Shown piece by piece: positions 45,467 to 50,250 of a DNA stretch of 50,250 nucleotides; the stretch's first letter is position 1, and every line of letters starts with the position of its first letter. The stretch covers positions 1 to 50,250 of the forward strand of contig CACXKR010000007.1 in the NCBI GenBank assembly GCA_902768335.1, read 5' to 3'. This DNA comes from an uncultured Erysipelotrichaceae bacterium. Lineage in GTDB: Bacteria > Bacillota_I > Bacilli_A > RFN20 > CAG-826. A model generated the notes under the pieces. The model did no database searches, was not told the origin of the DNA, and saw only the letters and a program-made list of their open reading frames with translations. The position numbers were made by a program, and so were the translations under genes.

Positions 45467-46468
45467 TTATTTAACTGAATTTCTTTCAGCTTCGTCGAAC
45501 ATCTTAAGTAGTTGCTCAACCGTTAATTTTTTCTTTTCATCGCCCGAAATATCATGGATGATATGACCTTCATAGAACATGATTAATCGATCACCATAAG
45601 TAATCGCGTCTTTCATGTTATGAGTGATCATAAGTGTTGTCATTTGATTCTCGCGAACAATCTTTTCAGTGAGTTCTAAGACTTTTCTAGCGGTCTTTGG
45701 ATCAAGAGCGGCAGTATGTTCGTCAAGTAATAGAATTTGCTTTGTAAGGTCGTATTTACGAACTTTTTCATCAAATTCTTTGTAATATTGCTTTTTAAGA
45801 TTTCTCTTTTCTTTAAATCCAAGACCTTTTTGTTTTGAAATCTCTTTAATTTTGCCTTTATATTCAATAAAAGCATTATTATATGCAGAAGTAACTTCTT
45901 CTCTTGCTTTTTCCTTATCGCCCATCGAGAAAGTTACATAATCTTTAATGATTTGTTTATGAGTTGGCTCTGCTCTGAGGGTCGCCATTAACAAAGTTAA
46001 AGCTTGTCTTTGACCGCCAGATAGAACCCCAGCTTTGGTAGTCATTCTAGTTTCTAATCCTAAACCAAGACTTTTTAGAAGTTCTGCATATTCGGCTTTT
46101 TTATTCTTATTAATATACCAGCTAAAGCCACGTTTTCCGCCTTTTGTGCCAGCAATTGCGAGGTTTTCGATAACTTGCATATTTCCAGCTGTTCCTTTTT
46201 GTGGATCTTGGAAAACACGGGCAAAATATTTAGCCCTCTGATCTTCGCGCATGTTGGTGATATCAACATTATTGAGTAATACGCCTCCGCGATCAGGGTT
46301 TAAAGTGCCCGCTAAGATGTTTAAAGTAGTGGTTTTGCCACTTCCGTTGCCACCAATAATAGTGACAAATTCACCATCATTTATCGTAAAAGAAACATTA
46401 TCAAGAGCGACTTTTTGATCAGAAGTTCCTTGATAGAAGACTTTAGTAACGTTTTTAAAAGATAACAT
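45467..46468 (-). CDS. ABC transporter ATPase of TrpXYZ type with ~75-residue insertion
   Basis: A 333-residue ATPase partnered with the two genes upstream on the minus strand. Walker A GGNGSGKTT at 39-47, Q-loop RVFQDPQKG near 85, signature LSGGQRQALTLLMATL at 149-164, Walker B ILLLDEHTAALDP at 245-257, switch His283 in MITHN. In homologues the signature helix runs directly into Walker B (about 10 residues). Here a highly charged, helical stretch of about 75 residues (167-241, rich in Lys/Glu/Tyr, e.g. KEKAREEVTSAYNNAFIEYK) is inserted in that place. Its one-base overlap with the permease gene shows a single operon. Import function is expected; the insert may contact a partner or regulate turnover. 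Confidence 0.85.
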   Translation of the reverse strand: MLSFKNVTKVFYQGTSDQKVALDNVSFTINDGEFVTIIGGNGSGKTTTLNILAGTLNPDRGGVLLNNVDITNMREDQRAKYFARVFQDPQKGTAGNMQVIENLAIAGTKGGKRGFSWYINKNKKAEYAELLKSLGLGLETRMTTKAGVLSGGQRQALTLLMATLRAEPTHKQIIKDYVTFSMGDKEKAREEVTSAYNNAFIEYKGKIKEISKQKGLGFKEKRNLKKQYYKEFDEKVRKYDLTKQILLLDEHTAALDPKTARKVLELTEKIVRENQMTTLMITHNMKDAITYGDRLIMFYEGHIIHDISGDEKKKLTVEQLLKMFDEAERNSVK

Positions 46469-47379
46469 TATTCCATCTCCTTTGCTCTTTGACGTTTAGC
46501 TTTGGCATTCTTAATATATACATTTTTAATGTATGGTATCGCTAAGAAGATAGCGACAACGATTGCAGAAAGCATCTTTAATAATTCAGGTTCATTTGTA
46601 AAGAAGACAATTAATTGATAGACAAAGAAGTAAATAATTCCACCAGCTAAGACAAATAATAAGGAAACTGCAAAGTTTTTGCTTAATTTAGCCCCGATAG
46701 TACTACCAATTATAATTGCGGCTAAACCAATGACGATTGCGCCTCGACCCATATTAATTTCAGCGCTGCCTTGGAATTGAGCTAATATCGCACCACCAAG
46801 AGCAACGATTCCGTTAGATAACATTAAGGCCACAATTTTACGTGAATTAATGTTAATACCATTGGCTTTTGACATATCTGGATTCGATCCTGTTGAACGG
46901 ATTGATGAACCGAATTTAGTGCCAAAAAACCAATATAAAAGGATAATTATTGCTAAAGCAATACCTAAAACAATAGGAATTGTTGTATATACGCCAGAAG
47001 ACATGTTGAGCGAAATCAAAGAATCTCGATTAGCAACATTTAATATGGCGCGTCCAAGAATCTTAAGATTTATCGACCAAAGCATTAACTGAGTAAGAAT
47101 ACCTGCTAAAATGCCAGGAATTCCTAAATAACAGTGGAGTAAGGCGGTTATTAAACCAGCTAGAGTTCCTGCTAAAAATGCGATGAGAAACGCTGGAGCA
47201 GCAGGAAAGCCTACACTTAGTAATATTGCGTAGGTACATCCACCCGTTGCAAATGAGCCATCAACTGTTAAATCAGCAAAATCTAAAATTCTAAAGGTGA
47301 TGAAAACACCGATGGCCATTATGCCCCAGATTATTCCTTGGTCAAGGACTGAAGGTAATGTTGAGAAAAAACCAGCCAT
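46468..47379 (-). CDS. ABC transporter permease of TrpXYZ type
   Basis: A 303-residue permease of the BPD_transp_2 class with about eight to nine membrane segments. N-terminal LDQGIIWGIMAIGVFITFRILDFADLTVDGSF and the GLITALLHCYLGIPGILAGILTQLML stretch are typical of permeases linked to DUF534-type binding proteins. The C-terminus is basic (KNAKAKRQRAKEME), so cytoplasmic. Fits between the binding protein and the ATPase. The start has GGAAGGATTG upstream as a plausible ribosome-binding site. Confidence 0.88.
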   Translation of the reverse strand: MAGFFSTLPSVLDQGIIWGIMAIGVFITFRILDFADLTVDGSFATGGCTYAILLSVGFPAAPAFLIAFLAGTLAGLITALLHCYLGIPGILAGILTQLMLWSINLKILGRAILNVANRDSLISLNMSSGVYTTIPIVLGIALAIIILLYWFFGTKFGSSIRSTGSNPDMSKANGININSRKIVALMLSNGIVALGGAILAQFQGSAEINMGRGAIVIGLAAIIIGSTIGAKLSKNFAVSLLFVLAGGIIYFFVYQLIVFFTNEPELLKMLSAIVVAIFLAIPYIKNVYIKNAKAKRQRAKEME

Positions 47380-47393
47380 TTAACAATCCTTCC

Positions 47394-48362
47394 TTATAAT
47401 TGTTCGTATCCTTCTGGAACGACGATGCCATAGGCATCACAACGTTCTTTATTATAAAGTTTTTTAACGTCGTTATCATATTGAATAGCGTATTCATCAA
47501 TTTTATTTTTACCAAGTAAAACGTTGAAAGCCATTTCACCGGTTACTTCACCTAAACGATGATAATCAATAGATAAGGTGGCAATACCCGCACCTTCACA
47601 GATGCCAGATTCACCAGCATAAACTGGCTTATGGGCTGGAGCAAAGATTCCATCAATAATTGAAACATTTGATGCAGCGGTATTGTCGGTTGGAATATAG
47701 ATTGCATCATCTTCAGCAGCGGATTTTTGGCAAACGCTTTTTAAATCGCTTGAATCGGTGAATGGTCTAGGAGTAACGGTTTTGCCTAAAGAAACCAAAT
47801 GTTTACTAATTTCATCGACTTGGAATTTGGAATTAGCTTCGCTAGAGCAATATATAATTCCGATTTTATTCGCGCTTGGTAATAGTTTAACCATTTCGTT
47901 TGCTTGTTGATCAAGTGGTGCTAAATCGCTAGTTCCAGAAACGTTTTTACCGGATTTTCCATCTTTAAATTCAATGCCTAAAGCTGCTCCATAATCAGTA
48001 ATTGAAGTTCCTAATATTGGAATATAGGAAGTAGCGGCATAAGCAGCAGTTAAACATGGAGTAGCATTTGCTAAGATAAGATCAACATCTTTTGAAACTA
48101 AATCGGTAGTGATTGTAGGACAAAGTGCGCTATCACCAGCAGCGTTATTTTCAATAAAGCTTACTTCACGTCCTGCTGCTTGTAGTAAAGAAGTTAATTT
48201 TTCTTTAAAACCAGCAGTCGCTGCATCTAGAGCTGGATGAGTTACTAGTTGAGCAATACCGACTTCGTATTTTTGCTTGTCAGGATTGACTTTAATTTTT
48301 CCTGAGCATCCTGATAATGCAATGGCGGATGTTAATCCAAGAAGTGCGAGGATTTTTTTCAT
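47394..48362 (-). CDS. ABC transporter binding lipoprotein of TrpX (DUF534) type
   Basis: A 322-residue substrate-binding lipoprotein. The signal peptide ends in ALSGC (Cys near residue 19). The ABC_sub_bind pattern is clear: VGIAQLVTHPALDAATAGFK near 34, LILANATPCLTAAYAAT near 96, PILGTSITDYGAA near 118, KIGIIYCSSEANS near 165, and DAIYIPTDNTAASNV near 215. Homologues in Gram-positives are thought to import tryptophan or other aromatic amino acids, often under T-box control; no T-box is seen here. Substrate is therefore uncertain. AAGGAG lies 9 bases before the ATG on the minus strand, behind an attenuator-like leader. Confidence 0.87.
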   Translation of the reverse strand: MKKILALLGLTSAIALSGCSGKIKVNPDKQKYEVGIAQLVTHPALDAATAGFKEKLTSLLQAAGREVSFIENNAAGDSALCPTITTDLVSKDVDLILANATPCLTAAYAATSYIPILGTSITDYGAALGIEFKDGKSGKNVSGTSDLAPLDQQANEMVKLLPSANKIGIIYCSSEANSKFQVDEISKHLVSLGKTVTPRPFTDSSDLKSVCQKSAAEDDAIYIPTDNTAASNVSIIDGIFAPAHKPVYAGESGICEGAGIATLSIDYHRLGEVTGEMAFNVLLGKNKIDEYAIQYDNDVKKLYNKERCDAYGIVVPEGYEQL

Positions 48363-48382
48363 TTTTATTTTCTCCTTTTTTC

Positions 48383-48480
48383 AAAAAATAAATCCCGGGA
48401 GCAAACACCGGGTTATCTTTTGCCAGGTGTTTGACTTATGTCTCCCACCTGTCATTTTTAAAGTAGGAAACGATCACCTA
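48383..48480 (-). ncRNA. Attenuator-like RNA leader (possible riboswitch) of TrpX-type operon
   Basis: On the minus strand, about 98 bases before the ribosome-binding site. Terminator: CCCGG (48412-48408) with CCGGG (48398-48394), then ATTTATTTTTT. Upstream hairpin: CAGGTG (48451-48446) with CACCTG (48429-48424). Alternative fold: CAAACACC (48433-48426) with GGTGTTTG (48409-48402), prolonged by GGGAG (48446-48442) with CTCCC (48401-48397). The alternative uses bases of both other stems, so terminator and antiterminator exclude each other. I find no T-box (no AGGGTGG) and no known aptamer core I can name. A 24-codon ORF starting at ATG 48454 with one TGG overlaps this leader and has no ribosome-binding site. 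Confidence 0.65.
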
Positions 48481-48677
48481 AAATAAAAATAACCAAAGTA
48501 AAAATAAGATTTTGAGCTAGAAATTAAATTAATATTTCTATTCATAATTATTTTCGCTTTCTTGTTCTAATAATATTGCAAACCCTTTATAAAAACAAAG
48601 TTTTTTTGAAAAATTCCAAGTTTTTCATATGCCCGCACATAACATTTCTAAAAATAAATATATTATGTGACATACTC

Positions 48678-48699
48678 CCGCCACTTAAAGAAGTGGGGG
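48678..48699 (-). other. Right-end hairpin of IS605 element, likely omega-RNA scaffold
   Basis: CCACTT (48681-48686), AAAG loop, AAGTGG (48691-48696), continued after one mismatch by CC (48678-48679) with GG (48698-48699). It overlaps the tnpB stop codon (48685-48687). In IS605 elements the right end is a subterminal hairpin recognised by TnpA, and the tnpB 3' end plus right end is transcribed as the guide RNA of TnpB; the guide would come from bases left of about 48668. Confidence 0.7.
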
Positions 48700-49842
48700 C
48701 TTCTTGCTCGATGACTCTAATGAGTCAAGCATAAACAAGCTATCCGGATGTGTCCCATCCTTTGTAAGCATTTCAATTCCCTTACTTAGAATATTTTTCG
48801 CAGCGTTACAATCTCTATCATGGACCGATCCACATTCTGGACAAGTCCATTTTCTTATTTTGAGATTTTTCACATCTTTATTTTGATATCCACATAAAGA
48901 ACATAATTGACTAGAAGCGTAATTAGCGGGAACTTTAATAATCATATTCCCATACCAACTAGCCTTATAAATGAGCATAGAAACAAATCTAGACCAGGAC
49001 GCGTCAATGATACTTCTAGCTAGTTTATGGTTTTGTTCCATGTTCTTCACTTTCAAATCTTCGATACAAATGATTTGGTTTTCATCAATGATCTTCTTTG
49101 AAAGTTTATGGAGATAATCATTTCTTTGGTTATTGATGCGACGATGAATTCTTGCGACTTTAATTCTCTGTTTATTTCTATTATTACTACCCTTTTCCAT
49201 ATGGGATAGTTTTCTTTGTTCTTTAGCCAATTTCTTCTGCGATTTACTTAGATATTTACGATTCTTATATTTGTTCCCATTAGAATCAACAATCAAATCC
49301 TTAATGCCTAAATCTAAACCAATCGCATTATCCATAAGATTAATGGATTCAGCTTCTTCTTCAACGAGTAAAGAAATGTAATACTTCCCATCCGTGGTTT
49401 TGCTAACAGTGATAGATTTAATATTACCATAAAAGTCTCTATGTTTCTTTATTCTTATTCTTGAACATTTAGGAATAGAAATATATCTATCATTAGTAGA
49501 GAATTTCACACTTCCCTGATTGTTCGTGGTATAGCTTTGATCATGTCTTTTGCTTTTGTATTTAGGAAAAGCGTTCTGTTTTTTAAAAAATGATTTAAAA
49601 GCCATATTCCTATTTATTTGAGCGTTACATAAAGCCAAAGAATCAACTTCTTTTAAAAAGGGATAATCTTCCTTATATGAAGTGGGAGTGATGTTCTTAT
49701 ATATTCCCTTGTTTTTATATAATTCATTCATATCAGAAAGGGATTTATTATAGAAAAACCTCACACATCCAAAAACCTTAGCAAAGTATTCCCTTTGTGC
49801 TTTATTAGGATAGATACGATATTTATAGGCTTTTCTAATCAT
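48685..49842 (-). CDS. tnpB: TnpB, RNA-guided nuclease of IS605 family
   Basis: A 385-residue protein. N-terminal AYKYRIYPNKAQREYFAKVFG then CVRFFYN is the helix-turn-helix_16 (OrfB) start. RuvC-I Asp is in IGLDLGIKDLIVDSNG near residue 194, RuvC-II Glu in IICIEDLKVKNM near 261, RuvC-III Asp in DRDCNAAKNIL near 349. The zinc finger has four cysteines, SQLCSLCGYQ and WTCPECGSVHD. All catalytic residues are present, so it should be an active RNA-guided DNA nuclease, a Cas12 ancestor. It follows tnpA by 17 bases. Confidence 0.93.
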   Translation of the reverse strand: MIRKAYKYRIYPNKAQREYFAKVFGCVRFFYNKSLSDMNELYKNKGIYKNITPTSYKEDYPFLKEVDSLALCNAQINRNMAFKSFFKKQNAFPKYKSKRHDQSYTTNNQGSVKFSTNDRYISIPKCSRIRIKKHRDFYGNIKSITVSKTTDGKYYISLLVEEEAESINLMDNAIGLDLGIKDLIVDSNGNKYKNRKYLSKSQKKLAKEQRKLSHMEKGSNNRNKQRIKVARIHRRINNQRNDYLHKLSKKIIDENQIICIEDLKVKNMEQNHKLARSIIDASWSRFVSMLIYKASWYGNMIIKVPANYASSQLCSLCGYQNKDVKNLKIRKWTCPECGSVHDRDCNAAKNILSKGIEMLTKDGTHPDSLFMLDSLESSSKKPPLL

Positions 49843-49859
49843 ATTCCCTTTCTTAAGGA

Positions 49860-50250
49860 TTATTCCCCTTGTGATTCGATATATTTTTTAATCGTTTCAA
49901 TGTTCGCTCCACCTGTCGAGATTAAGCAGAATGATTGAGACCAAAATGCTTCTTTATATAATCTAGATTTAATAGAAGGATATTCTTTTTTAATCAGTCT
50001 AGAAGAAGCAGATTTATAAGCATTGATGAATTTAGAAATATTGGAATTTGGTTCACTTCTAAATAGAACATGAACATGGTCGATATCATGATTCCATTCT
50101 TCCAAGACAATATTGTAATTATCTTGGATATATTCAAATATCTCTTTTAGCCTTTCAGATATTTTTTCATCAATCACCTTTTTACGATATTTAACTACCA
50201 AAATAAGGTGAAAATGAATGTTGAATACTGAATGGTTATTCCCTCTCAAT
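49860..50250 (-). CDS. tnpA: TnpA, IS200-type Y1 transposase (5' end at window edge)
   Basis: About 130 residues visible; the reading frame starts at or just outside the right edge (a TTG at 50249 is the first visible start, reading RGNNHSVFNIHFHLILVVKYR, which is nearly the normal N-terminus). HUH motif: DIDHVHVLFRSEPN near residue 58. Catalytic Tyr: GGANIETIKKYIESQ near 122. TnpA cuts and joins single-stranded DNA at the element ends. Appears intact apart from the edge. Confidence 0.9.
   Translation of the reverse strand, partial: LRGNNHSVFNIHFHLILVVKYRKKVIDEKISERLKEIFEYIQDNYNIVLEEWNHDIDHVHVLFRSEPNSNISKFINAYKSASSRLIKKEYPSIKSRLYKEAFWSQSFCLISTGGANIETIKKYIESQGE

Follow-up and report, generated by a model that had tools for sequence, protein, structure and literature searches.

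A likely tyrosine-responsive leader-peptide attenuator preceding an ABC importer operon in an uncultured member of the Bacilli

The window analyzed here, a stretch of 50,250 nucleotides from an uncultured Erysipelotrichaceae bacterium (contig CACXKR010000007.1), carries an importer operon preceded by a leader region, all encoded on the minus strand (Table 1). An IS200/IS605 element (TnpB and TnpA) lies directly upstream of the leader (48685-50249, minus strand). Some 100 bases separate its end from the leader ORF, and the native upstream sequence may have been replaced by the element. A scan of the leader strand for sigma-70-like promoters found none, leaving an upstream promoter guess unsupported.

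Table 1. Predicted elements of the leader and of the importer operon, numbered from the first letter of the window
Feature	Position	Strand	Basis
Leader peptide ORF MNRNINLISSSKSYFYFGYFYFR, stop TGA, 23 codons	48474..48545	-	7/5000 dinucleotide shuffles; same-position peptides in 68/87 leaders
Putative sensing codons TAT TTT TAC TTT GGT TAT TTT TAT TTT (Tyr/Phe block)	48480..48506	-	sequence
Arm 1a AGGUG, overlapping last codon and stop; partner CACCU (48429-48425)	48475..48479	-	MFE fold
Arm 1b GUUUCCUACUU; partner AGGUGGGAGAC (48450-48440)	48461..48471	-	MFE fold
CAGGUG, 5' arm of the alternative anti-antiterminator hairpin (that of the initial annotation)	48446..48451	-	3/6 pairs changed on both sides
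GGGAG; with CUCCC (48401-48397) extends the antiterminator	48442..48446	-	sequence; energy evaluation
Shared arm CAAACACCUG; partner 1a or CAGGUG (off) or GGUGUUUG (on)	48424..48433	-	covariation
Antiterminator 3' arm GGUGUUUG CUCCC, overlapping terminator stem and loop	48397..48409	-	4/8 pairs changed on both sides, 0/500 shuffles
Intrinsic terminator hairpin CCCGG-(9 nt)-CCGGG	48394..48412	-	3/5 pairs changed on both sides
Terminator U-run AUUUAUUUUUU	48383..48393	-	sequence
Ribosome-binding site of the importer gene	48372..48381	-	sequence
Substrate-binding lipoprotein (PF04392; TrpX/CD0873 family), Glu and Tyr at CD0873 E263/Y279 positions	47394..48362	-	
Importer permease (PF02653)	46468..47379	-	
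Importer ATPase (PF00005)	45467..46468	-	

The initial annotation had described a mutually exclusive terminator and antiterminator before a TrpX-type importer, and the elements that it named are present on the minus strand. The GC stem followed by a T-run corresponds to the terminator CCCGG...CCGGG (48412-48394) and the adjoining ATTTATTTTTT (48393-48383). The 8-base alternative pairing joins CAAACACC (48433-48426) to GGTGTTTG (48409-48402), the 5-base pairing joins GGGAG (48446-48442) to CTCCC (48401-48397), and the upstream hairpin is formed by CAGGTG and CACCTG (48451-48446 and 48429-48424). The fold of the 101-nt leader is better than expected by chance (z -3.5, 1/200 shuffles). The annotation had recognised no T-box, TPP, SAM, purine, lysine, cobalamin or fluoride core in the leader. 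An Rfam covariance search of the window found no family at gathering score, no aptamer family of a described class was matched, and the relaxed threshold gave only chance-level matches (best E 0.2). The T-box model (RF00230) has no match at the importer locus at either threshold, but it is present elsewhere in the same genome and before the paralogous importer genes L079, L084, and L086.

A 23-codon aromatic-rich ORF (48545-48474), overlooked in the initial annotation, ends within the first arm of the switch. It reads ATG AAT AGA ... TCT TAT TTT TAC TTT GGT TAT TTT TAT TTT AGG TGA. Seven of eight positions in its block are aromatic, and an ORF with at least 7/8 aromatic residues occurred in 7/5000 dinucleotide shuffles of the 330 bases upstream. 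The ORF is predicted to be translated; it has an ATG start and a position conserved across relatives, and its Shine-Dalgarno sequence is weak. Another ORF (ATGACAGGTGGGAGACAT...) overlaps the hairpin and contains one Trp codon; it was rejected as a Trp leader, since a ribosome stalled at that codon would cover the wrong arm. The aromatic codon pattern has a second match in the same genome (C1:20565). By eye this match resembles part of a coding sequence, and it was not counted as a leader; the reversed control of the pattern gave three matches too.

Of 196 family genomes searched, 81 yielded importer homologues, and the upstream regions of 87 genes were read. An ORF with a Tyr/Phe block was identified in 68 of these 87 leaders, ending about 90-150 bases upstream of the importer gene and usually followed by a terminator, which lies some 20-60 bases before that gene. 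By a stricter count (at least 6/8 aromatic), such an ORF is found in 67/85 leaders, against 0.28 expected from shuffles. Examples of the family peptides are MKQAYKVYAYYYYYYPRSNQ (L019) and MKRAFYYFYSYYYPRGNQ (several leaders). Over 58 distinct leader ORFs, the aromatic block contains 270 Tyr codons, the commonest, together with 133 Phe and 1 Trp. No family peptide has fewer than three Tyr; in seven of them there is at most one Phe, and Trp is found in only 2/68. The peptide is absent from L002-L007, the six importers nearest to that of the window by protein sequence. Among the closest importers in protein sequence, L002-L007 and L031-L034 (59-68% identical) have no peptide, and several of them carry a different conserved hairpin (CTTTCACC...GGTGAA) ahead of the start codon. 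The histories of the leader and of the binding protein seem to differ.

Covariation was assessed in ten leaders of the window type, aligned without structural guidance, and the covariation across relatives that the initial annotation had proposed as a check is present. In the 8-bp antiterminator helix, 92.5% of cells are paired and 4/8 pairs have changed on both sides (0/500 shuffles). For the upstream hairpin and terminator together, 95.5% of cells are paired, with 17 cells doubly changed (0/500 shuffles) and 6 pairs doubly changed (4/500). In leader L059, CACC of the shared arm is replaced by CGCC (an A-to-G change), and both competing partners read GGCG; such a matched change in both partners is expected if both pairings matter. 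Arm 1a, which pairs with CACCU, is conserved over the ten leaders with no covariation, and arm 1b is paired in 89% of cells over the same leaders with covariation not beyond that of shuffles. The roles of arms 1a and 1b given below are inferred, since the helices next to the stop codon are mostly kept but show no such covariation. A covariance model built from the ten leaders and run over the 196 genomes returned the ten training sites, one marginal match, and the site G072:C21:45620-45720 (E 1.9e-8). This last site, absent from the training set, precedes the gene of a DUF534 binding protein that the protein search had not retrieved, and its peptide is MKKLNTINSYGVYFYYYYYTR.

The effect of ribosome position was computed with an equilibrium folding model for 65 leaders. 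Ribosome-covered RNA was removed, with the leading edge set 13 bases from the A-site codon, and 60 spacer shuffles served as control. Averaged over the 65 leaders, the terminator probability is 0.86 for a ribosome at the stop codon and 0.48 for one at the lowest aromatic codon. The mean contrast between the stop codon and the aromatic minimum is 0.38, versus 0.038 +/- 0.021 in the spacer shuffles. For the window, the free RNA gives a terminator probability of 0.73; the value is 0.30 at the aromatic minimum and rises to 0.94 with the ribosome at the stop codon. The stop contrast of the window was reached by 0/60 shuffles. Leaders L008 and L063 show no switching in the equilibrium model. When the full U-run was allowed to pair, the terminator of the window was favoured in every ribosome state tested. 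In cells the antiterminator, being transcribed first, is kinetically advantaged, an effect established for known attenuators and outside the equilibrium model. A measure on truncated RNA, in which the 5' arm of the terminator is scored as pre-occupied, was uninformative because this arm is paired with upstream sequence in almost all states. It was replaced by the terminator probability in full-length RNA, compared with spacer shuffles.

Very likely, the leader acts as a ribosome-mediated transcription attenuator, with tyrosine starvation as its signal and a tyrosine ABC importer as its target. With ample charged tRNA-Tyr, the ribosome would pass the Tyr/Phe block and reach the stop codon. The CACC arm would then be captured by CAGGUG while the ribosome is still at the stop codon or, once the ribosome has gone, by AGGUG together with a GUUUCC:GGGAGAC helix. 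In either case the terminator would form and transcription would stop. When Tyr-tRNA is scarce, the ribosome would stall on the last Tyr codons and mask AGGUG, and CAGGUG would still be hidden in the GUUUCC:GGGAGAC helix during the stall. With CAGGUG hidden and AGGUG masked, CAAACACC would be free to pair with GGUGUUUG, which would block the terminator and allow the importer operon to be transcribed. A bacterium that does not make tyrosine would thus import it when short of it.

The best NCBIfam model for the binding protein is TrpX, with a score of 198.6 against a cut-off of 390, so by that model the protein does not qualify as TrpX. Homologues in complex with their ligands have already been solved, and the best solved relative is 6hni, which we take to be the structure of Clostridioides difficile CD0873. 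CD0873 is a tyrosine-binding protein with a solved structure, in which Glu263 makes contact with the hydroxyl of the tyrosine and Tyr279 keeps Trp out (PMC6816091). The same positions are occupied by Ala and Gln in the Trp binder SP1069 and by Ala and Tyr in the Phe binder VC_1101 (PMC6816091). The window protein has Glu and Tyr at these signature positions. Within the family, all 67 non-permuted peptide-led proteins are acidic at the Glu263 position (59 Glu, 8 Asp). The three T-box-led family proteins (L079, L084, and L086) have Ala or Val there, and their T-box specifier, read by eye, is UGG (Trp). L071, an Ala/Tyr protein, has a T-box-like leader that was not called by Rfam, also with the specifier UGG by eye. 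By the same reading, the paralogous importers L079, L084, L086, L071, L160, and L167 all have T-box or T-box-like leaders with the specifier UGG and a non-acidic pocket. Genomes G109 and G188 each have one peptide-led and one T-box-led importer copy. Outside the order the pocket rule is looser, with several Glu/Tyr proteins under T-boxes that by eye read Phe, and with two Tyr-peptide-led proteins, in G285 and G453, that lack the acid (Ala or Thr). Four importers, L189, L190, L193, and L196, are exceptions to the rule, with a Glu/Tyr pocket and the T-box specifier UUC (Phe, by eye). Based on the pocket comparison with its exceptions, tyrosine is the best reading and phenylalanine its main rival. 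Judging from a Glu/Tyr pocket like that of CD0873, the operon and its leader likely concern the same amino acid, tyrosine. The idea that the switch could reveal the imported substrate held in part: the leader does point to a substrate, but through its codons, which indicate tyrosine, and not through a ligand. Several binding proteins have swapped lobes: L036 and L096 (G108), L093 (G173), L094 (G162), and L095 (G120). In these, one open frame encodes a signal peptide, the C-terminal half (query 166-322), and then the N-terminal half (26-163), a natural circular permutation in which the Glu/Tyr binding residues are kept.

The importer is present in 22/24 genomes of the host genus. Among these 24 draft genomes, chorismate synthase, and prephenate dehydrogenase above the cut-off, were found in G114 only, and this sole member with both enzymes is without the importer. 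Lacking both enzymes, the genus apart from G114 is therefore probably a tyrosine auxotroph, and the complementarity of enzymes and importer fits this picture.

Three other explanations were weighed. The initial annotation had taken the leader for a metabolite-binding riboswitch of an unrecognised aptamer class. The terminator/antiterminator layout is real and the leader folds well, but no Rfam family was matched and the conserved part consists of complementary arms and a Tyr/Phe-rich frame. The region upstream is a conserved reading frame with the same amino-acid bias repeated in 68/87 relatives, and the spacers between the arms differ in length in the alignment of the ten leaders. The switch is thus most likely not a metabolite-binding riboswitch, and we regard a new aptamer class as extremely improbable. 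It is also quite improbable, though somewhat less so, that the nascent peptide itself stalls the ribosome on a free small molecule, with no role for codon starvation, as TnaC does in response to tryptophan. The peptide has a strong bias, and one clade conserves its C-terminal sequence (e.g., YYYPRGNQ); against this, the sequence varies widely between clades, with only the Tyr/Phe content kept, and the PRGNQ-type tail can be explained by the pairing of its RNA with the next arm (e.g., L014).

A closer competitor keeps the same attenuator and replaces the sensed amino acid with phenylalanine, or with Phe and Tyr jointly. The block mixes the two codons (133 Phe to 270 Tyr), some homologous importers of other Bacilli are under T-boxes that by eye read Phe, and a Phe-Tyr-Phe leader in Corynebacterium glutamicum (AroR) responds to Phe and not to Tyr according to the review PMC11802643. 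On the other side stand the presence of at least three Tyr codons in every family leader, the seven leaders with at most one Phe, related leaders with runs of 6-8 Tyr, and a pocket whose acid contacts the tyrosine hydroxyl in CD0873. We therefore consider sensing of phenylalanine, alone or jointly with tyrosine, unlikely and prefer a predicted stall at Tyr codons.

Tyr-run leaders extend beyond the family. Among order-level outgroups, the peptides include SYYYYYYYYL (G200) and GFYYYYYYFY (G216). Similar leaders are found in several other families of the class, e.g., QFYYYYYYPRGYQE in G464, and other members have T-boxes. The Rfam family RF02863 (Enterococcus sRNA 2410), which has no match in the window or in the host genome, matches importer leaders in G285 (above the cut-off) and G305 (below it), and in both the match begins inside the ...FSYFR codons. 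The transporter leaders matching RF02863 are L199 (711-892), L246 (G305), and L247-L249. Weaker matches in G299 and G321 lie before a BrnQ-type carrier, behind a leader similar to MNSNLTTRFYYSYYC. A further weak match in G299 (L249, ~1400-1720) precedes an SNF-type sodium-dependent transporter, behind the ORF MNTFNVQLNNWRNWSY with two Trp codons, which is possibly a Trp version of the switch. Instead of an sRNA that acts in trans, RF02863 is probably an attenuated leader, and we infer the same for Enterococcus itself. On the whole we lean toward the view that unrecognised tyrosine leader-peptide attenuators control importers of aromatic amino acids across the class Bacilli, replacing or coexisting with T-boxes, that RF02863 is one branch of them, and that the sensing codons change with the transporter (e.g., Trp in L249).

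To our knowledge, known tyrosine regulation relies on T-boxes or TyrR-type proteins. No tyrosine-specific leader-peptide attenuator was found in the open-access literature, subscription papers lying mostly outside the scope of the search. The kind of attenuator is known, and its amino acid, its importer target, and its spread through the Bacilli seem to be new. Under the proposed switch, a DUF534 importer family that usually carries the tryptophan label would have tyrosine as its likely substrate, in hosts that are uncultured Bacilli seemingly unable to make aromatic amino acids. Within single genomes, e.g., G109 and G188, two sensors of tRNA charging, a peptide and a T-box, appear to share the work among paralogous importers. 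A possible function is also suggested for RF02863, an Rfam 'sRNA'.

Amino-acid leader-peptide attenuators are well known from the trp, pheA, and pheST operons of Escherichia coli. Histidine leader-peptide attenuators exist in Firmicutes (PMC2965389, PMC9413887). Like these systems, the window leader has a short ORF enriched in codons for the amino acid concerned, whose end overlaps arm 1, mutually exclusive helices, and an intrinsic terminator before the operon. It differs from them in its Tyr codons (with Phe), in preceding an importer operon instead of biosynthesis or synthetase genes, in the two alternative anti-antiterminators that seem possible, and in belonging to hosts that otherwise use T-boxes. 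AroR of C. glutamicum (Neshat 2014, in PMC11802643) shares a Phe/Tyr-codon leader peptide for aromatic metabolism, but in the account given there it belongs to an actinobacterium, has Phe-Tyr-Phe only, responds to Phe and not Tyr, and controls aroF. The Acholeplasma element uORFC-13-1 shares a predicted Phe-containing uORF and a terminator before an aromatic amino-acid gene; it has at least one Phe codon, lies upstream of aroF, and is a prediction only (PMC8632094). RF02863 is found in leaders of importers of the same family but is annotated as an sRNA, has other arm sequences, and does not match the window. The Trp T-box of Streptococcus suis trpXYZ controls a homologous importer operon that is likewise induced at amino-acid scarcity, but its RNA senses tRNA directly with no leader peptide (PMC9382623), whereas the window locus carries a leader peptide ORF and no T-box.
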